Below, in pieces: positions 7,929 to 64,000 of a DNA stretch of 64,000 nt. Source of the stretch: Microcella alkalica (GTDB lineage: Bacteria > Actinomycetota > Actinomycetes > Actinomycetales > Microbacteriaceae); assembly GCF_014595885.1 (NCBI RefSeq), contig NZ_JABUKC010000004.1:1-64000 (forward strand). Direction: 5' to 3'. Under the pieces are notes generated by a model, which saw nothing but the letters and a program-made list of their open reading frames with translations, was not told where the DNA came from and did not search any database. Every line of letters begins with the position of its first letter. The stretch's first letter is position 1. The position numbers and the translations under genes are program-made.

Positions 7929-8936
7929 ATGCCCCACGTCGCCGCCGATGACCGCTACGAGCAGCTCGAGTACGCGAGGGTCGGCCGCAGCGGCCTCAAG
8001 CTGCCCCGCATCTCGCTCGGGCTCTGGAACAACTTCGGCGACGACCGGCCGATCGAGACGCAGCGGGCGATCCTGCGCCGCGCCTTCGACCGGGGCGTGA
8101 CGCACTTCGACCTCGCGAACAACTACGGGCCGCCCGACGGCAGCGCCGAGACGAACTTCGGGCGCATCCTGCACGAGGACTTCGGGCCGTACCGCGACGA
8201 GCTCATCATCTCGACGAAGGCGGGCTACTACATGTGGCCGGGCCCCTACGGCGAGTGGGGCTCGCGCAAGTACCTGCTGAGCTCGCTCGACCAGAGCCTG
8301 ACGCGCATGGGCCTCGACTACGTCGACATCTTCTACAGTCACCGCCCCGACCCCGAGACCCCGCTCGAGGAGACGATGGGCGCGCTCGCGACGGCCGTGC
8401 AGAGCGGCAAGGCGCTCTACGCGGGCATCTCCAACTACGACGCCGGTCAGACGCGCGAGGCGCACCGGATCCTCGGCGAGCTCGGTGTGCCGCTGCTCAT
8501 CCACCAGCCGCGGTACAACATGTTCGATCGCCGCATGGAGCACGGCCTGCTGGATGCCCTCACCGAGACCGGCATCGGCAGCATCGTCTTCTCGCCGCTC
8601 GCGCAGGGGCTGCTCACGAACCGGTACCTCGACGGCGTTCCGGCCGGCTCGCGCGCCGCCGAGGGTCGCTGGATCAGCGGCGACAACATCGACGAGACCT
8701 ACCTCGAGCGCGCCCGCGCCCTCAACGCGATCGCCGAGGGCCGCGGCCAATCGCTCGCGCAGCTCGCCCTGCTCTGGGTGCTGCGCCACCCGCAGGTGAC
8801 GAGCGCCCTCATCGGCGCGAGCAGCGTCCGCCAGCTCGACGACAGCCTGGATGCCCTGCACGGCGCCGCGCTGACCGCCGACGAGCTCGCCGCCATCGAG
8901 CCGCACGCGGTGCACGGCACGGGCTCGCGGAGCTGA
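7929..8936 (+). CDS. Aldo/keto reductase, YghZ/Gpr-like
   Basis: The 335-residue (beta/alpha)8 NADPH-dependent reductase has the catalytic tetrad of the family: Asp and Tyr in HFDLANNYG, Lys in ISTKAGYYMWPG, and His in YSHRPDPETP. The motif WGSRKYLLSSLDQSLTRMGL and overall length place it with E. coli YghZ (L-glyceraldehyde 3-phosphate reductase) and the Kv-beta-like AKR14 group. These reduce aldehydes such as methylglyoxal or L-GAP. It ends one base before the EamA transporter gene, so the two are very likely co-transcribed. The true substrate cannot be read from sequence. Confidence 0.92.
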   Translation: MPHVAADDRYEQLEYARVGRSGLKLPRISLGLWNNFGDDRPIETQRAILRRAFDRGVTHFDLANNYGPPDGSAETNFGRILHEDFGPYRDELIISTKAGYYMWPGPYGEWGSRKYLLSSLDQSLTRMGLDYVDIFYSHRPDPETPLEETMGALATAVQSGKALYAGISNYDAGQTREAHRILGELGVPLLIHQPRYNMFDRRMEHGLLDALTETGIGSIVFSPLAQGLLTNRYLDGVPAGSRAAEGRWISGDNIDETYLERARALNAIAEGRGQSLAQLALLWVLRHPQVTSALIGASSVRQLDDSLDALHGAALTADELAAIEPHAVHGTGSRS

Positions 8937-8937
8937 C

Positions 8938-9903
8938 ATGGGCTACCTGCTCGCCGTCGCGGCGGCGGTGCTGTTCGGCGCGAACGGCAGCGTCACGAAG
9001 ATCATGATGGAGGCGGGGCTGAGCCCCGCGCAGGTGACGCAGTTCCGCCTGCTGGGCACCGCGATCGTCGCGGGGCTCGTGCTGGTCGTCGTCGACCGGG
9101 CGGCGTTCCGGCTGCCGCGCCGTCAGTGGCCGGTCATGATCGTGCTCGGCATCGTCGGCGTCGCCGTGCTGCAGGCGACCTACGCCGCCGCGGTACAGCG
9201 CCTGCCCGTTGGCATCGCGCTGCTGCTGGAGTACACGGCTGTGCTCATGGTCGCCCTGGTCGCGTTCTTCTTCTTCAAGGAGCAGGTCAAGACGCGGCTC
9301 TGGGTCGCGATCGCGCTCGTGCTCGTCGGGCTCGCCGTCGTCGCGCGCGTCTGGTCGAGCGAGCTCGACGCGCTCGGCGTCGTGCTGGCGATCGGCGCGG
9401 CGGTGTGCCTCGCGGCGTACTTCCTCATCGGCGAGCGCCAGGTGGCGAAGACCTCCGCCCTCGCGGTGTCGTTCTGGACGATGACGATCGCGACCGTCTT
9501 CTGGTCGTTCGTCAGCGGCTGGTGGGAACTCGACGCGAGCGTGTTCACGCAGCCGGTCGACATCGGCGGCGTCGGTGGCGAGCTCGTCGTACCGATGCTG
9601 CTGCCGCTCCTCTGGAACGTCGTGCTCGGCACCTTCGCCCCGTTCCTGCTGAGCCTCGCCGCGCTGCGGTTCCTGCCCGCGACGGCGGCCGGCATCGTGG
9701 CCTCCTCCGAGGTGATCTTCGCCTTCGCGGTCGCCTGGCTCTGGCTCGGCGAGACCCTCGACGTCGTGCAGATCGTCGGGGCCGCGGTCGTGCTCGCGGG
9801 GGTCATCCTCGCTCAGACGGCCCGCGCCGGGAAGGTCGTCGACGCCGATCTGGCCCTCACCACGGGCCCCATCACGACGGTTCGCGACACCGCCGTTCCC
9901 TGA
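8938..9903 (+). CDS. EamA/DMT-superfamily transporter
   Basis: The 321-residue membrane protein has ten predicted transmembrane helices in two EamA halves. The first begins YLLAVAAAVLFGANGSVTKIMM. The second ends with the family hallmark AATAAGIVASSEVIFAFAVAWLWLGETL (residues about 255-285). EamA proteins are drug/metabolite exporters of the cytoplasmic membrane. The start lies one base after the aldo/keto reductase stop, so the pair forms an operon; export of an aldehyde-reduction product or related metabolite is an inference. A 30-residue soluble tail follows the last helix. Confidence 0.92.
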   Translation: MGYLLAVAAAVLFGANGSVTKIMMEAGLSPAQVTQFRLLGTAIVAGLVLVVVDRAAFRLPRRQWPVMIVLGIVGVAVLQATYAAAVQRLPVGIALLLEYTAVLMVALVAFFFFKEQVKTRLWVAIALVLVGLAVVARVWSSELDALGVVLAIGAAVCLAAYFLIGERQVAKTSALAVSFWTMTIATVFWSFVSGWWELDASVFTQPVDIGGVGGELVVPMLLPLLWNVVLGTFAPFLLSLAALRFLPATAAGIVASSEVIFAFAVAWLWLGETLDVVQIVGAAVVLAGVILAQTARAGKVVDADLALTTGPITTVRDTAVP

Positions 9904-10960: not shown

Positions 10961-12379
10961 TCAGCTCGCCGGCACCGCCTCGCCGTCGTGCGTCGCCGCG
11001 TACGCGCGACGCGACCACATCGACACGTGGTGGTGCATCTCGGGGATGAGCGGCTCATGCTCGGGCTTCATGAGCACGCTGCGCATGATGCGGCCGGTGG
11101 GCGCATCAACCTCGAGGTCGATGCCCCGCGCGCGCAGCTGCTCGGGCTTGACGACGTAGGTCGCCAGGTGCGTCTGCTGCGGGCGCGTCGTGTCGGCCGC
11201 CATCTCGAAGATTGCGTGACTCGTGCGGTCGAGCTCGGCCATCGTGCGCACGCGCGGCAGGTAGGTGATGATGTCGAGCTCGGGCCGCTGGTAGGGCTGC
11301 AGGATGTCGGACTCGCTGATGAGCCCGTGCCAGGTCTGGGCCGCGCGGTAGCCAGGCAGCACGATGCCGCCGAGGCCTTCCTTGGTGAGCGGGAATACGC
11401 GCAGCGTCGCCCACAGCGCGGCCGCCGAGGCCCCGGCCCGAGAGCACTCGAGCTGGATCTCGCCGAAGTGCCGCTCGGTGCTCGCGAAGTAGGTGTACGG
11501 CGACTCGTGGTGGTAGTACCGCAGGATCGACTGGTCGTTGAACAGCACCGCACCGCAGCCGTAGGGCTGCAGGCCGTGCTTGTGCGGGTCGACGACGACC
11601 GAGTCGGCGTCCTTGATCGCGCGGAAGTGCCGGGCCGTCCCCGGCTCGAGCTCGTCGGCGATGATCGAGAAGAACCCGCCGTAGGCGGTGTCGACGTGGA
11701 TGCGCGCGCCGTACCGCCGCGCGAGCGGGATGATGTCGGCCAGCGGGTCGACCGCGCCGAGGCCCGTCGTGCCGAGGGTCGCGACGACGACGCCGATGCG
11801 CCCGGTGGCGAGCTCGCGCTCGAGGGCGTCGAGCTCCATGCGCCCGATGGCGTCGGTCGGGATGCTCACGGTGTCGATGCCGAGCACCTCGCCCATGCGG
11901 GAGTGCGTGTAGTGGGCATCCGCTGAATGGGCGATCGCCTTGCCCGGTGCGATCTCGCGGCTGATCCAGAGCGCCTCGAGGTTCGCGGTCGTGCCGCTCC
12001 AGGTGAGGTGGCCCATGTACTCGGCCGGGTAGTCGAACATGGCGGCGAGCTGGTCGAGCACCTCGTGCTCCATGGCGGTGGTCGCCCGGCTCGCGTCGAT
12101 CGAATGGTTGTTGGGGTTCAGCTGCATCGTCGCGAGGTACGCGGCGGTCGCGACGGGGTGCGGCGGCTTGAGCATCTGGCCCGCGTACTGCGGGTGGAAG
12201 TACGGGAAGTTGTCGTCGAGCCGCTCGATGAGCTCGGCGAGCACCGCGTGCACCTGGTCGGGGTCGGCGTGGGTCGACGGATGCTGATCCCAGGTTCCGT
12301 AGGTCGCCTTCAGGTCGCCGATGCCGGTCATCACCTGCGGCAGCAGCTCGTTCAGATCGACGGGACGCTTCGCGCTCAC
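10961..12379 (-). CDS. Group II PLP-dependent decarboxylase
   Basis: The 472-residue fold-type I enzyme is related to glutamate, aspartate and aromatic amino acid decarboxylases. The PLP lysine lies in VVVDPHKHGLQPYGCG. An upstream Asp/His pair (HVDTAYGGF) contacts the cofactor ring, and LTWSGTTANLEALWISRE is the phosphate-binding region. The start chosen is GTG 12379, preceded by AAGGAG about ten bases upstream; the open frame extends to 12601 through the tRNA-fragment region, which is not coding. Substrate specificity (glutamate, aspartate, tyrosine or another) cannot be set from sequence. It stands alone between a membrane protein and tRNA-Arg. Confidence 0.9.
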   Translation of the reverse strand: MSAKRPVDLNELLPQVMTGIGDLKATYGTWDQHPSTHADPDQVHAVLAELIERLDDNFPYFHPQYAGQMLKPPHPVATAAYLATMQLNPNNHSIDASRATTAMEHEVLDQLAAMFDYPAEYMGHLTWSGTTANLEALWISREIAPGKAIAHSADAHYTHSRMGEVLGIDTVSIPTDAIGRMELDALERELATGRIGVVVATLGTTGLGAVDPLADIIPLARRYGARIHVDTAYGGFFSIIADELEPGTARHFRAIKDADSVVVDPHKHGLQPYGCGAVLFNDQSILRYYHHESPYTYFASTERHFGEIQLECSRAGASAAALWATLRVFPLTKEGLGGIVLPGYRAAQTWHGLISESDILQPYQRPELDIITYLPRVRTMAELDRTSHAIFEMAADTTRPQQTHLATYVVKPEQLRARGIDLEVDAPTGRIMRSVLMKPEHEPLIPEMHHHVSMWSRRAYAATHDGEAVPAS

Positions 12380-12505
12380 AACCGCACTCCTTCGTGTGGA
12401 CGGGTGGATCCGGCGCGAGCCTGGTGGGCCGCGCCGGAGAGTCACACGGAGTCTACGGAGGAACGGTGGCCGTTCGGTAGCGAACGAAGACCGCGTCCTA
12501 TGGTG

Positions 12506-12542
12506 GCGCCCTCGGCAGGAATCGAACCTGCGACCAAGAGAT
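12506..12542 (-). repeat. Partial copy of the tRNA-Arg 3' half (att-like)
   Basis: These 37 bases are identical to 12570-12606, which covers the T-arm, variable loop and acceptor 3' strand of tRNA-Arg(TCT). The two copies are 64 bp apart in direct orientation, and this copy has no 5' half, so it is not a tRNA. A duplicated tRNA 3' end is what integration by a tyrosine recombinase leaves behind. The 27 bp between the copies is far too short for an element, so this would be a scar or a short tandem duplication. Confidence 0.8.
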
Positions 12543-12570
12543 GAGAAGCACCGCGAGACCCACTCCAACG

Positions 12571-12643
12571 CGCCCTCGGCAGGAATCGAACCTGCGACCA
12601 AGAGATTAGAAGGCTCCTGCTCTATCCGCTGAGCTACGAGGGC
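12571..12643 (-). tRNA. tRNA-Arg (anticodon TCT)
   Basis: On the minus strand the acceptor GCCCTCG pairs with CGAGGGC. D-arm GCTC/GAGC, anticodon loop CTTCTAA and T-arm GCAGG-TTCGATT-CCTGC are all present. The anticodon TCT reads AGA arginine codons, which are rare in this genome. The anticodon stem has one weak closing pair next to the loop. No CCA is encoded. Confidence 0.93.
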
Positions 12644-12673
12644 TGGCCGCTCCAGGGTAGCCGAGGGGCGCGC

Positions 12674-12937
12674 TCAGTCGGCGGCCGCGGCGAGCGCCGT
12701 CAGCAGGCGCGGCAGCGTCGGCACGCCCGCGGCGCGCACGACCTCCGAGCCGTCGGCGCGGCGGATGATCGTCGTCGGCGTGCTCATGATGCCGAGCTCC
12801 TCGGCACGAGCGGCGTGGGCGGCGACGTCGCGCTCCTCGACGGCGAGCGCGGGCACGAGCCGCTGCGCCTCGGCGACGACCTCGCGGGCCCGGTGGCACG
12901 GGTCGCAGAAGGCGGAGGTGTAGAGCTCGAGCAGCAC
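12674..12937 (-). CDS. Small thioredoxin/glutaredoxin-like protein
   Basis: The 87-residue protein has a thioredoxin-like fold with the redox pair in FCDPCHRA (CDPC, residues 11-14) after a short first strand LLELYTSA. The cis-proline region MSTPTTIIRRADG follows near residues 51-63. It is at the short end for the family, about the size of glutaredoxins and NrdH-like proteins. It probably acts as a cytoplasmic thiol-disulfide reductant or in detoxification. It is transcribed divergently from orn with 43 bases between the starts. Confidence 0.85.
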   Translation of the reverse strand: MLLELYTSAFCDPCHRAREVVAEAQRLVPALAVEERDVAAHAARAEELGIMSTPTTIIRRADGSEVVRAAGVPTLPRLLTALAAAAD

Positions 12938-12980
12938 CCGCCCAGCGTAGGCCGTCGGTGCTGACGGTTAGACTCCCCGG

Positions 12981-13604
12981 GTGAGTGCTGCGACCGACCG
13001 TCTCGTCTGGATCGACTGCGAGATGACCGGTCTCGACCTCACGAAGGACGAGCTCGTCGAGGTCGCCGTGGTCATCACCGACTACGAGCTCGAGCCCGTG
13101 CATCCGGGCTTCGCCGTCGTCATCAGGCCGTCGGAGAGCGCGCTGGCGAGCATGGGCGACTTCGTGCGCGAGATGCACGCGAGCTCGGGCCTGCTCACCG
13201 AGCTCGAGCACGGCGTGAGCCTGGAGGAGGCCGAGCAGGCGGTGCTCGACTACATCACCGAGCACGTGCCGAACGCCGGCCAGGCGCCGCTCGCGGGCAA
13301 CACGATCGGCACCGACCGCTCGTTCCTGGCTCGCGACATGCCGCGCGTCGACGCGCACCTGCACTACCGCTCGGTCGACGTCTCGAGCATCAAGGAGCTC
13401 GTGCGGCGCTGGTTCCCGCGCGTGTACTTCAACGCCCCGGCGAAGAACGGCGGGCACCGGGCGCTCGCCGACATCCTGGAGTCGATCCGCGAGCTCGAGT
13501 ACTACCGCCGCGTCGGCTTCGTCGCCGAGCCCGGCCCGTCCAGCGAGGATGCCCAGGCCATCGCCGCGACCATCGTCGAGCGCTGGGCGCCCCGCCTGAG
13601 CTGA
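12981..13604 (+). CDS. orn: Oligoribonuclease
   Basis: The 207-residue DEDDh 3'-5' exonuclease degrades 2-5 nt RNAs (and pGpG) to mononucleotides and completes mRNA decay. Visible motifs are WIDCEMTGLDL (Exo I, with Asp and Glu), GNTIGTDRSFLARDMP (Exo II) and HRALADILESI (Exo III, with the general-base His and last Asp). GTG 12981 is the start, giving the usual opening SAATDRLVWIDCEMTG. Length is typical. It stands as a single gene before tRNA-His. Confidence 0.97.
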   Translation: MSAATDRLVWIDCEMTGLDLTKDELVEVAVVITDYELEPVHPGFAVVIRPSESALASMGDFVREMHASSGLLTELEHGVSLEEAEQAVLDYITEHVPNAGQAPLAGNTIGTDRSFLARDMPRVDAHLHYRSVDVSSIKELVRRWFPRVYFNAPAKNGGHRALADILESIRELEYYRRVGFVAEPGPSSEDAQAIAATIVERWAPRLS

Positions 13605-59101: not shown

Positions 59102-61186
59102 ATGAGCGAGGCGGGAAGGTCCGCGGGCACCGAGGCCCGTCGCCTGGTCGCGCTCGCCGACGAGCACGAGCGCCTCGCCGCGATCGCCCGCGACGAGGCC
59201 CAGCGGTGGATGCTCGCCCACCGCACCGAGCGCCAGGTCGCCGGCACGCTCGCCCCGCTGACCGCGCAGGGCTACACCTTCCTGCACGACCGCGGCTGGC
59301 CGGGCGCCCGCCGCGGCAGCCGCGCGCAGATCGACCACGTGCTCGTCGGGCCGGGCGGCGTCTTCGTCGTCGACACGAAGGCGTGGAAGGACGTAGCGAT
59401 CGCCGCGGGCCGCATCTTCCGCGGGCAGGCCGACGTGACCGATGAGCTCGCCGGCCTCGCCGATGTCGGCTACAGCACCGAGGCGGCGCTCGCCGAGCTC
59501 GGCCTCGCACCGGGCGAGGTGCATGTGCTGGTCGTGCTGGCCGGCTCCTCGATGCCACCCACTCCCCTGCAAGGTCTCGGCGGACTCATGGTCGTCGGCG
59601 AGCGGGCCGCCGCCAAGCAAATCGCCGGCTTCGGGCGCCGCCTGACCGACAAGCAGCAGAACGCGGTGCTGAGCCTGGTGCTCGACCACTTCCCGCTCGT
59701 GGGTGAGGCTCCGAGCGAGCTCGATGCGAGCATCCCCGACCCGATCGTCACCCAGGATGAGCCGCTGCTGACGCTCGACGAGATCGCCGACACCTTCCTG
59801 GCCGGGATGCTCGCCGCCCCCATCGAGGAGTGGATGGCCTTCCTGCACCCCGACCAGGCGAAGCTCGTGCGGCGCAGCTTCAGCGGCCCCTCGCGCATCC
59901 GCGGCCCGGCAGGATGCGGCAAGACGGTCGTCGGGCTGCATCGGGCGGCGTACCTGGCTCGGGCATCCACCGGGCGCGTCGTCGTCACCACCTACGTGCG
60001 CACGCTGCCCGACGTGCTCGCCACGCTCATGACGCGGCTCGCGCCGGAGGTGGCCGACCGCGTCGAGTTCACCGGCATCCACCAGTTCGCGCTGCGGGTG
60101 CTGCGCGAGCGCGGGCACCGCGTAGTCGTGAAGCTGCCCGAGGCGACGCAGGCGTTCAACCGAGCGTGGGCGCAGGTCGGCCGGCAGGGCCCGCTCGCGG
60201 CGCTCGACTCGAACTCGCGCTACTGGCACGACGAGCTGCTGCACGTCATCAAGGGCCGCGGCCTGACGACCTTCAAGCAGTACGCCGACCTCGCCCGCGC
60301 CGGGCGCCGCCGACGGCTGAGCGTCGACCAGCGCCGCGAGGTGTGGCGGCTCTACCTGCAGTACCAGCAGAACCTCCGCGACGCGGGCGTCATGGATTTC
60401 GAAGACGTCATCCTGCGCGCCGAGGCGTCGCTGCGCGAGCGCCCCCTCGAGGGAGTCAGCGCGGTCGTCATCGACGAGGCGCAAGACCTCTCGTGCGCCA
60501 TGATCCGGATGCTCTACGCCCTCGTCGGCGACCGCCCCGACGGTCTGACGCTCATAGGCGACGGCCAGCAGACCATCTACCCCGGCGGCTACACGCTCGC
60601 GGAGGCCGGGCTCACCGTCGCCGGACGCGGCGTCGTGCTCTCCACGAACTACCGCAACACTCGCGAGATCGCGGCCTTCGCGGCGACGGTCGTCGAAGGC
60701 GACGAGTTCGTCGACATCGAGGGCGGCGCGCTGCGAGGGGATGCGGCGGTCGCCATCCCGCGGACGGGCCCCGCCCCGCAGTCGGCGGTCTTCACCTCCG
60801 CGACCGAGCACGACGCGGCGCTCGTGTCGCACGTGCGGTCGCTCGTGATCTCGGGCGTCTCGGCCGGAGACATCGGCGTGCTCTGCGCCACGAACCGCGA
60901 TGCGGAGGCGTGCGCTGGCGCGCTGCGCCGGGCCGGGCTCGAGACAGTCAAGCTCAGCGACTACTCGGGGGTCGTGACCGAACGCGTGAAGGTCGGCACG
61001 ATCAAGCGCGCCAAGGGGCTCGAGTTCAAGCAGGTGCTCGTGGCGCGCGTGCGCGAGTCGCTGCTCGGCAATTTCGCACCCGGCGCCCACGATGGGGCCA
61101 GGGAGCGCTGGGAGATCGAGCGGCGCGAGCTCTACGTGGGGATGACGCGAGCGCGCGACGGGTTATGGGTCGGTCGCACACGATGA
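59102..61186 (+). CDS. NERD nuclease domain-UvrD/REP-type helicase fusion
   Basis: The 694-residue protein combines an N-terminal NERD domain with an SF1 helicase. In the NERD domain (about 38-165), Glu43, Asp78 in QIDHVLVGPGG and Asp91-x-Lys93 in VVDTKAW give a PD-(D/E)xK-like active site. In the helicase, Walker A is GPAGCGKT (268-275) and motif II is VIDEAQDL (about 456-463). Later motifs are GDGQQTIY, STNYRNTREI and, near the end, ELYVGMTRARDGLWVG. NERD is a predicted nuclease domain; the helicase moves 3'-5' on DNA in relatives. The next gene encodes a RecB-like nuclease candidate 71 bases downstream. Role could be DNA repair or phage defence. Confidence 0.92.
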   Translation: MSEAGRSAGTEARRLVALADEHERLAAIARDEAQRWMLAHRTERQVAGTLAPLTAQGYTFLHDRGWPGARRGSRAQIDHVLVGPGGVFVVDTKAWKDVAIAAGRIFRGQADVTDELAGLADVGYSTEAALAELGLAPGEVHVLVVLAGSSMPPTPLQGLGGLMVVGERAAAKQIAGFGRRLTDKQQNAVLSLVLDHFPLVGEAPSELDASIPDPIVTQDEPLLTLDEIADTFLAGMLAAPIEEWMAFLHPDQAKLVRRSFSGPSRIRGPAGCGKTVVGLHRAAYLARASTGRVVVTTYVRTLPDVLATLMTRLAPEVADRVEFTGIHQFALRVLRERGHRVVVKLPEATQAFNRAWAQVGRQGPLAALDSNSRYWHDELLHVIKGRGLTTFKQYADLARAGRRRRLSVDQRREVWRLYLQYQQNLRDAGVMDFEDVILRAEASLRERPLEGVSAVVIDEAQDLSCAMIRMLYALVGDRPDGLTLIGDGQQTIYPGGYTLAEAGLTVAGRGVVLSTNYRNTREIAAFAATVVEGDEFVDIEGGALRGDAAVAIPRTGPAPQSAVFTSATEHDAALVSHVRSLVISGVSAGDIGVLCATNRDAEACAGALRRAGLETVKLSDYSGVVTERVKVGTIKRAKGLEFKQVLVARVRESLLGNFAPGAHDGARERWEIERRELYVGMTRARDGLWVGRTR

Positions 61187-61257
61187 GTTCCTATAGCGCA
61201 AGTCTCGTACCCACCAGCGGCCCCGAAACCTGATCCAACAGAAAGCAGAAGACCTCG

Positions 61258-62610
61258 ATGGCAGCGAAGACCCCCTCACCGGAACCCGCTTGGAACGCCG
61301 CCCGCCTGATCCCCACCTCAGGGATCAATGGAGCAGACGAGCAGGAGCGTCGGGCGACCTCCGCTCTCCTGGCAGTGATGTCTGCTGTTCGAGACTTCGG
61401 CAAGACGCTCACGCAGCCGCTCGGTGCGCCGGCGGCGAGTCTCGAGACCTTCATCGAAGTGCCGTTCACCATCGGCGAGCGTCGGGTCTACCCGGACGGA
61501 CTAATCCGCGCGAGCCGCGGCGCAAAGACGTGGACGGCGCTCGTCGAAGTCAAGACGGGGACGAACGTCCTGGAGACTGCACAGCTCGAGGACTACCTCG
61601 ACGTCGCCCGGGAGCAGGGATTCGACGCGCTCATCACCATCTCGAACGAGATCCCGTCTGCGATGGGCACGCATCCGACCGCCATCGACGGCCGCAAGCT
61701 CAAGAAGGTGGCGCTGCACCACTACTCGTGGTCGGAGATCCTCACCGCGGCCGTCGTGCAGAAAGAGCATCGCGGGATCGCCGACCCCGAACAGGCATGG
61801 ATCCTCGGCGAGCTGATTCGTTACCTCGAGCACCCGAAGTCCGGGGCGCTCTCTTTCGAGGACATGGGGCCGAACTGGGTGCCGGTGCGCGAAGCGCTGG
61901 CGTCGGGCACACTTCGGGCCAATGACAAGGGAGTGGCTGAGGTCGCAAGCCGGTTCGATGCGCTTCTGCGCTTCGCCGGGCTGCGCCTCGGGCGACAGCT
62001 CGGTTCCGAAGTGCTGCCCGCCCTCAACCGTGCCGAAGCAGCCGATCCGAAAGCGCGGAGTACCCGCCTGGTCGCTGAACTCGTGCGCGACGGTCAACTG
62101 CGCGGCGGCCTGCGGATACCGGGTGCAGTGTCCGACCTCGCCGTTGTCGCCGACCTTCGCGCCGGCACCATCACCGCCTCGTTCGAGCTCGATGCCCCCA
62201 AGGAAGGGCGGCCGACCACCCGAGTGAATTGGCTCGTGCGTCAGTTGAAGGACGCACCGCCGAGCGTTCGTATCGAGGCGACCCCCGTTCGCTCGAGTAG
62301 CGGCCCGGCCGCGCTCTTGGGTGCCGTGCGCGAGACCCCTACATTGCTGGTTCCCGAGTCCGGACGGGACATCAAGACCTTCACCGTCGCGCGCTCAGTG
62401 CCGATGGGCGCGAAGCGCGGAACCGGACGAGGCTCGTTCATCGACTCGATGGTCGACGCGATCGACTGCGCCTACCTCGAGATCGGCCAGGTCTTGAAGG
62501 CGTGGGCAGCGACGCCGCCGAAGCTTCGTCCTACGCAGGTCGTCGAGACCGAGCCCGGTATCGACAGCGCGTTGCCGTCGGCCGCCCTCTCCTCACAAGA
62601 CAACGAGTAA
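61258..62610 (+). CDS. Hypothetical protein with PD-(D/E)xK RecB-like nuclease signature
   Basis: The 450-residue product starts at ATG 61258. Residues 65-115 fit a restriction-endonuclease-like core: Asp80 in VYPDGLI, then Glu97-x-Lys99 in LVEVKTG, and Gln109-x3-Tyr113 in TAQLEDYLD, the QxxxY seen in RecB-family nucleases. The preceding helix includes ADEQERRATSALLAVM. The remaining 330 residues are an unassigned alpha/beta domain. Homologues in actinobacteria are sometimes called stress response proteins without support. Position after the NERD-helicase gene suggests a shared function. The third-position choice is more mixed than in the neighbouring genes. Confidence 0.75.
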   Translation: MAAKTPSPEPAWNAARLIPTSGINGADEQERRATSALLAVMSAVRDFGKTLTQPLGAPAASLETFIEVPFTIGERRVYPDGLIRASRGAKTWTALVEVKTGTNVLETAQLEDYLDVAREQGFDALITISNEIPSAMGTHPTAIDGRKLKKVALHHYSWSEILTAAVVQKEHRGIADPEQAWILGELIRYLEHPKSGALSFEDMGPNWVPVREALASGTLRANDKGVAEVASRFDALLRFAGLRLGRQLGSEVLPALNRAEAADPKARSTRLVAELVRDGQLRGGLRIPGAVSDLAVVADLRAGTITASFELDAPKEGRPTTRVNWLVRQLKDAPPSVRIEATPVRSSSGPAALLGAVRETPTLLVPESGRDIKTFTVARSVPMGAKRGTGRGSFIDSMVDAIDCAYLEIGQVLKAWAATPPKLRPTQVVETEPGIDSALPSAALSSQDNE

Positions 62611-62692: not shown

Positions 62693-64000
62693 CTACTGCG
62701 CGGCGCGCTCAAGCACCAACTCGCGCACGCGAGCCGCATCAGCCTTGCCGCCCATCGCCTTCATCACCGCGCCGATGACAGCGCCAGCGGCCTGCACCTT
62801 GCCGTCACGGATCTTCTCGAGAACATCCGGCTGCGAAGCGAGCGCAGTGTCGACGGCGGTGATGAGCGCGCCGTCGTCCGAGACGACCTCGAGACCACGA
62901 GCCGCGACGACCTCGGCCGGCGAGCCCTCCCCCGCGATGACGCCCTCGACGACCTGTCGGGCGAGTCGGTCAGTGAGGGCTCCCGACTCGACGAGGGCGA
63001 CGATCTCGGCGACGTGGGCCGGTGAGATGAGCGACGCGGGCTCCGCGTCGGTCGCGTTGGCGATGCGGGCGATCTCACCCGTCCACCACTTGCGCGCCTG
63101 CTGGGGGGCGGCGCCCGCGGCGACCGTGTCGGCCACCTCGACGAGCAGGCCCGAGTTCACGACGTCGCGGAACTCGAGGTCGCTGAAGCCCCACTCCTCC
63201 TTCAGGCGGCGTCGGCGCGCGGCCGGAGCCTCGGGCAGAGCATCCCGCAGTTCTTCGATCAGGGCCGCAGTCGGCGTGACCGGCAGCAGGTCGGGCTCGG
63301 GGAAGTACCGGTAGTCGTCGGCGTCGCTCTTCGGGCGGCCGGGCGACGTCGTGCCGGTGTCTTCATGCCAGTGGCGCGTCTCTTGCGTGATCGTGCCGCC
63401 CGCCGCGAGGATCGCCGCCTGGCGCTGGATCTCGTACCGCACGGCCCGCTCGACGCTGCGCAGCGAGTTGACGTTCTTCGTCTCAGTGCGCGTGCCGAAC
63501 TGCTGCTGCCCGCGCGGCCGCAGCGACACGTTCGCGTCGCAGCGCAGGTTGCCGCGCTCCATGCGGGCCTCCGAGATGCCGAGAGCACGCACGATGTCGC
63601 GGATCGTCGACACGTAGGCCTTCGCGAGCTCCGGCGCGCGGTGCTCGGCGCCGACGATCGGCTTCGTCACGATCTCGACGAGCGGCACGCCGGCGCGGTT
63701 GTAGTCGACGAGCGAGTACTCGGCGCCCTGGATGCGGCCCGTCGAGCCGCCGACGTGCGTCAGCTTGCCGGCGTCCTCCTCCATGTGGGCGCGCTCGATC
63801 GGCACCTGCACGAGCGTGCCATCCTCCAGCTCGACCTCGAGAGATCCCTCGAAGGCGATCGGCTCGTCGTACTGGCTGATCTGGTAGTTCTTCGCGAGAT
63901 CCGGGTAGAAGTAGTTCTTGCGCGCGAAGCGGCTCGTCGGCGCGATCTGGCAGCCGAGCGCGAGACCCAGCGAGATCGAGTACCGCACGGCCTGCTCGTT
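62693..64000 (-). CDS. gatB: Aspartyl/glutamyl-tRNA amidotransferase subunit B (N-terminus outside window)
   Basis: The open frame runs from its stop at 62693 to the right edge, so about 436 C-terminal residues are visible and the first 60-70 are missing. Diagnostic blocks are [54 protein letters not shown] and [19 protein letters not shown]. The C-terminal YqeY/tail domain follows, with the ending [26 protein letters not shown]. With GatA and GatC it converts misacylated Glu-tRNAGln (and Asp-tRNAAsn) to Gln-tRNAGln. gatA and gatC are expected just beyond 64000. Confidence 0.97.

Follow-up and report, generated by a model that had tools for sequence, protein, structure and literature searches.

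The adjacent genes hel and nuc of Microcella alkalica are probably two independent genes that share one chromosomal site, hel being most likely a stand-alone anti-phage or anti-plasmid enzyme and nuc a separate PD-(D/E)XK protein. Both lie in the window, meaning the whole stretch of 64,000 nucleotides that was analysed (Table 1), where a first-pass annotation had proposed them as a candidate two-gene defence or repair system built from two predicted nucleases, one of them fused to a helicase. The prediction of the two nucleases and of the fusion agrees with the domain and residue evidence, and a defence role for the helicase gene is made likely by defence-type neighbours in other genomes; the two-gene system is not supported, as nuc mostly occurs without hel and few defence-model matches lie in its flanks.

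Table 1. Features of the hel-nuc region, with positions in the window
Feature	Position	Strand	Evidence
hel, 694-aa fusion of a NERD nuclease and a UvrD-type helicase	59102..61186	+	Open reading frame; Pfam; best PADLOC match C3a187 'NERD+UvrD' (4.5e-28); motif conservation
NERD nuclease domain, hel residues 40-100 (Pfam stretch)	59219..59401	+	PF08378 (3.5e-12); D78, D91, K93
UvrD helicase N-terminal domain, hel residues 250-493, with Walker A K274 and DEAQD	59849..60580	+	PF00580 (4.5e-18)
UvrD helicase C-terminal motifs, hel residues 625-690	60974..61171	+	PF13361 (2e-15)
hel-nuc gap, 71 bp from stop to start	61187..61257	+	Sequence; promoter and terminator scan
nuc, 450-aa predicted PD-(D/E)XK protein that stands alone and corresponds to the C-terminal half of TerD-nuclease fusions	61258..62610	+	Open reading frame; alignment; TerD fusions
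Predicted nuclease core of nuc, residues 26-172 (D80, E97, K99, Q109, Y113)	61333..61773	+	AlphaFold2 model; Foldseek; invariant residues
C-terminal alpha/beta domain of nuc (modelled), about residues 264-410, without a convincing fold match	62047..62487	+	Model pLDDT 90; Foldseek best E 0.059
gatB, cut by the window's end; convergent gene that anchors the variable region in which relatives carry hel and nuc	62693..64000	-	NCBIfam NF004013

The helicase gene and its surroundings

The NERD-UvrD fusion had been placed correctly in the first-pass annotation, and its reading frame gives Pfam matches to NERD, UvrD-helicase and UvrD_C (Table 1). K93 lies within DTK, K274 within GPAGCGKT, and DEAQD begins at residue 458; in 28 aligned sequences, that of the window included, K274, D458 and E459 are present in all 28, D78 in 27 and K93 in 26, and hel thus belongs to the NERD-UvrD proteins by both the acidic and lysine residues of NERD and the motor motifs of UvrD. 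The pN/pS of hel is 0.13-0.28 among four genus members and 0.63-0.70 against the distant hel of a genome from another genus (G158), that of nuc is 0.12-0.36 (six genomes), and both genes look to be under purifying selection, as judged from these sequence comparisons.

Some known systems resemble hel. Its best PADLOC match, the model C3a187, combines the same two domains, the match being moderate, with its best stretch at model positions 313-540 of 559; we know of no experimental report for this PADLOC label. Nhi is a nuclease fused to a helicase of the DUF2075/SLFN-g3 type. Like the single-gene Nhi and Nhi-like systems, hel joins a nuclease and an SF1 helicase in one protein, but its helicase part matches UvrD, and PF09848 at just 0.086, below the cut-off of that model, which places it outside Nhi; Nhi models are also absent from the best 25 of the 36 PADLOC matches of hel. 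One review tabulates the NERD domain for both Mokosh type I and Nhi-like systems (PMC10952713).

The flanks of hel were surveyed at 26 loci of the family, three genes on each side, 20 loci being hand-picked and mostly unlinked to gatB and six being others; genes in these and in the nuc flanks were called with our own gene-calling script and pooled training, and 149 of the 151 open reading frames were used after two long ones at a locus end were dropped. The most frequent models in the best 25 of the resulting rows, mad3 (5/149) and AriA (3/149), occur also in a control of 55 of the 63 called open reading frames of the window (2/55 and 1/55, among four PADLOC models matched) and are therefore taken as background. 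Ten neighbours, hand-picked from the larger flank reading frames, are more telling: six matched at 1e-10, one of them as a partial MkoA, four had no match, and strong matches were seen in five, namely Orf5/HEC-06 (1e-128), DrmD (2.9e-176), ZorA (6.2e-166), PsyrT (5.6e-214) and LmuB (9.2e-73). Defence systems found near hel elsewhere in the family are thus DISARM (DrmD), Zorya (ZorA), PsyrT and Lamassu (LmuB), and such neighbours make hel by itself a candidate single-gene anti-phage nuclease-helicase.

Around the window's own hel no recognisable defence genes were found in the 55-gene control, and the gene sits among ordinary genes, which, together with the purifying selection on hel in the four genus members compared, would suit a housekeeping DNA repair helicase accompanied by a repair or stress nuclease, neither of them anti-phage. 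Such a function is rather unlikely, given the patchy presence of hel (47/299 genomes in the family), its fragments in G004 and G016, and in G020 alongside a full copy, and its defence-type flanks elsewhere. Our best guess is that hel alone would act against phages or plasmids, as its domains and surroundings suggest: an ATP-driven helicase would translocate along DNA after loading at ends or on single strands, and cutting would fall to the NERD domain.

The nuclease family and its TerD fusions

The protein encoded by nuc has the length, position and residues that had been described for it, and an alignment of 24 sequences, that of the window included, shows no variation at D80, E97, K99, Q109 and Y113. 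It gives no match to Pfam, NCBIfam or PADLOC models at E 1 and none to PDB sequences at E 5, and the 24 aligned members give weak profile matches to VRR_NUC (13/24, best 0.0059) and TnsA-N (7/24, best 0.0042). An AlphaFold2 model of nuc (pLDDT 86) has restriction endonucleases as its top Foldseek hits, EcoT38I (E 4.1e-3, probability 0.98) and MspJI, none of the hits reaching E 0.001. The predicted membership of nuc in the PD-(D/E)XK superfamily holds on the modelled core fold, the conserved D and E-x-K, the other invariant residues and the weak profile support. A Q-x3-Y motif III is a trait of the RecB-type branch of PD-(D/E)XK. Of the RecB-family signature that had been claimed for nuc, the PD-(D/E)XK assignment and the invariance of Q109 and Y113 in the 24 sequences stand, whereas no RecB-type match was found in Pfam or among PDB sequences. 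In the model the nuclease core is followed by a helical linker and the C-terminal alpha/beta domain; a fold identity for the latter, modelled alone, was sought with Foldseek, and no convincing match was obtained (Table 1).

The flanks of nuc were surveyed at 33 loci, two genes on each side, four of 37 loci (L063, L067, L132 and L133) being left out because nuc was not called there. They matched 38 PADLOC families among 132 proteins, fewer than the 202 families matched among the 149 proteins of the hel flanks, in a comparison of sets of unequal design in which one protein can match many models, the hel loci are hand-picked and from the family, and the nuc loci are mostly from other families; 18 of the best 25 of the 38 rows are PD-T4-6 models with one member each. 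A constant neighbour of nuc was not found across genera, common neighbours being confined to close relatives such as those in Kribbella, and carriage by phages was rejected after 0 matches in 50,697 phage records. Three loci (L201, L202 and L203, in G804, G870 and G817) hold reading frames of ~300 aa with only the nuclease part of nuc (query residues 10-202), and in G870 and G817 a complete nuc gene precedes this frame by ~2.3-2.6 kb. A record named Planococcus sp. APC 4015 has a nuc (L057, 8001-9326) that clusters in the nuc tree with copies from the family of the window, and this record may be mis-named or mixed.

Plasmid records gave 11 matches to nuc, from Streptomyces and Rhodococcus, ten annotated as TerD family protein and one unannotated; their C-terminal part is homologous over 89-94% of nuc and 38-42% identical. 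The TerD domain is N-terminal, with the nuc-like part after it, in all three of the 11 records that were scanned, and it likewise precedes nuc in 7/7 long-frame homologues from the order, in 5/5 matches from genus g109 and in G572; the fusions are present on both plasmids and chromosomes. Unlike them, the window nuc lacks the N-terminal domain, having no Pfam match to TerD, and falls outside the TerD-nucleases.

A TerD sensor acting in trans, with nuc serving a stress or anti-phage response of the TerD type, is suggested by the fusions on plasmids and chromosomes and by passages in the literature that propose TerD as a possible sensor of nucleotide derivatives (PMC7159879) and mention a TerD-dependent anti-phage system (PMC3710099), but it is improbable: a TerD gene was found in 0/8 genomes (that of the window and seven relatives), against 2/14 control genomes, and no TerD match was found beside stand-alone nuc copies in the loci searched. 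Our best guess for the nuc family, held with low confidence, is a signal-linked nuclease whose activity would be coupled to stress or nucleotide signalling, as the TerD-fused relatives suggest, the TerD sensor being missing here. A fuller and tentative proposal, with a small chance of being right, is that nuc represents an actinobacterial protein family not described before, whose members would combine a PD-(D/E)XK nuclease with a new C-terminal domain into a signal-gated effector; the TerD-fused branch would bring the sensor along, and another host signal would drive the stand-alone branch, to which the window nuc belongs.

Co-occurrence of the two genes and the gatB site

The hel-nuc pair, of which no description was found in the open-access literature among the matches listed, is not kept together across genomes. 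In named genomes hel was found in 0/32 nuc loci (tblastn, 1e-10), each taken with up to 8 kb of flank on each side, shorter at contig ends, and a scan of 60 genomes (own, genus, family and order) found nuc in 8 and hel in 22, with a hel cut-off of E up to 1e-40. With naive P values, which are uncorrected for kinship and count the window's own genome, co-occurrence is at chance in the genus, where 19 genomes (completeness 90% or more, contamination 5% or less) gave nuc in 6, hel in 10 (the G022 copy with a stop) and both in 3 against 3.2 expected (P 0.74); it is borderline in the family, where 299 genomes gave nuc in 14, hel in 47 (1e-100) and both in 5 (G000, G034, G084, G154 and G158) against 2.2 expected (P 0.051), leaving 42/47 hel genomes without nuc and 9/14 nuc genomes without hel; and it exceeds chance in the order, where 396 genomes gave nuc in 29, hel in 17 (1e-80) and both in 5 (G000, G738, G829, G1018 and G1061) against 1.2 expected (P 0.005), with 24/29 nuc genomes lacking hel and the genes being neighbours only in G000, the genome of the window.

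In the window both genes are intact and on the same strand, and the convergent gatB comes after nuc. The 60-genome scan and the family scan combined give 17 genomes with nuc in the family, nuc being broken in G034 and G154; an intact hel lies within ~1 kb of nuc in four of them and in two opposite orders, hel-nuc in G000 and G158 and nuc-hel in G006 and G014, and in G004 nuc adjoins a C-terminal remnant of hel with two stops. G158, from another genus, repeats the order of the window with ~66 bp between the matched frames. Across the same 17 genomes, gatB is at most ~6 kb from nuc in ten (G000, G004, G006, G010, G014, G019, G084, G106, G154 and G158), separated from it by 75 kb or more or on a different contig in six (G138, G179, G210, G277, G317 and G330), and absent from the 16-kb stretch examined around nuc in G034. 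Among the 43 hel genomes of the family's other genera, a gatB match being missing in three (G114, G161 and G229), 11 have hel and gatB convergent and no more than 20 kb apart (G080, G084, G089, G131, G158, G177, G222, G226, G308, G313 and G325); in G308 hel and gatB are ~60 bp apart, and nuc was not found in that genome. Each gene is thus seen next to gatB without the other, and the gatB site best explains their adjacency.

Trees bear on the history of the two genes. In the nuc tree (40 rows: 15 of the 32 named loci plus TerD-fused sequences and those of genus, family and order, without G034 and G154) the genus copies form one clade (100/99), nested in a larger clade (87/95) that holds most copies of the family but not those of G210 and G330, and this nesting points to nuc as an old resident. 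In the hel tree, with modest support and long branches, the hel of G158 and that of G084 fall outside the hel clade of the genus, so that the hel-nuc order common to G000 and G158 does not have to go back to a single inherited pair. The two genes also differ in GC3 when compared within one genome, in the window with 0.80 for nuc versus 0.93 for hel. Broken or fragmentary hel or nuc genes were also observed at six loci of relatives (L074, L086, L087, L089, L076 and L139), partly beside gatB. At the gatB flank of G022 (L085) a 411-aa reading frame occurs twice (8474-9706 and 12111-13343), the first copy with parts of a broken hel on either side, and this repetition and position make it look like an insertion element. 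The gatB site is, as read from these genomes, a putative site of repeated gain and decay of hel and nuc, and their residence beside gatB in the family would make them neighbours in few genomes, in either order.

The gap between the genes was scanned as well. Neither a sigma-70-like promoter nor a plus-strand terminator-like site was found in it, and one minus-strand terminator-like site (61269-61253) was not above chance. By eye, no clear block was shared between the gap and the regions upstream of nuc in six relatives; a block with a GGAGG-like ribosome site precedes the nuc of G006 and G014, and partly that of G010, G019 and G004, and was not seen in the window (61187-61257). The length of the gap would allow one transcript across both genes, and the window nuc may depend on the hel transcript or on another promoter.

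Two known systems were compared with the pair. Gabija (GajA/GajB) likewise has a UvrD-type helicase with a nuclease, and hel matches GajB models down to 3.7e-27; GajA is described as an OLD-family nuclease (PMC10822852), and the lack of Pfam and PADLOC matches in nuc sets the pair apart from Gabija, where an OLD ATPase-nuclease stands beside GajB. AbpAB also consists of neighbouring genes for a nuclease-domain protein and a helicase, which a passage of the source gives as both needed for defence (PMC10732053); it differs in that AbpB is DEAD-box-like and AbpA has a Cap4-type nuclease domain, according to the same passage (PMC10732053), and in that the hel-nuc pair is not conserved. A true but facultative two-gene defence module, in which hel would unwind and some lineages of the family would have taken on nuc as an additional nuclease subunit, could draw on the four intact adjacencies, the hel remnant beside nuc in G004 and the co-occurrence above naive chance in the order, but it is quite improbable given the flips in gene order, the many family genomes in which either gene lacks its partner, the chance-level co-occurrence in the genus and the presence of each gene alone at the gatB site.

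The candidate two-gene defence system resting on adjacency falls away, and a variable site beside gatB that gathers both genes is the likely reason for their proximity. Two leads are left in its place. The first is hel considered alone, as a defence-linked NERD-UvrD enzyme. The second is a nuclease family that no Pfam model matches and whose TerD-fused branch has a putative sensor-plus-nuclease design; the TerD-nuc fusion and the unmatched C-terminal domain of nuc are the mildly surprising points.
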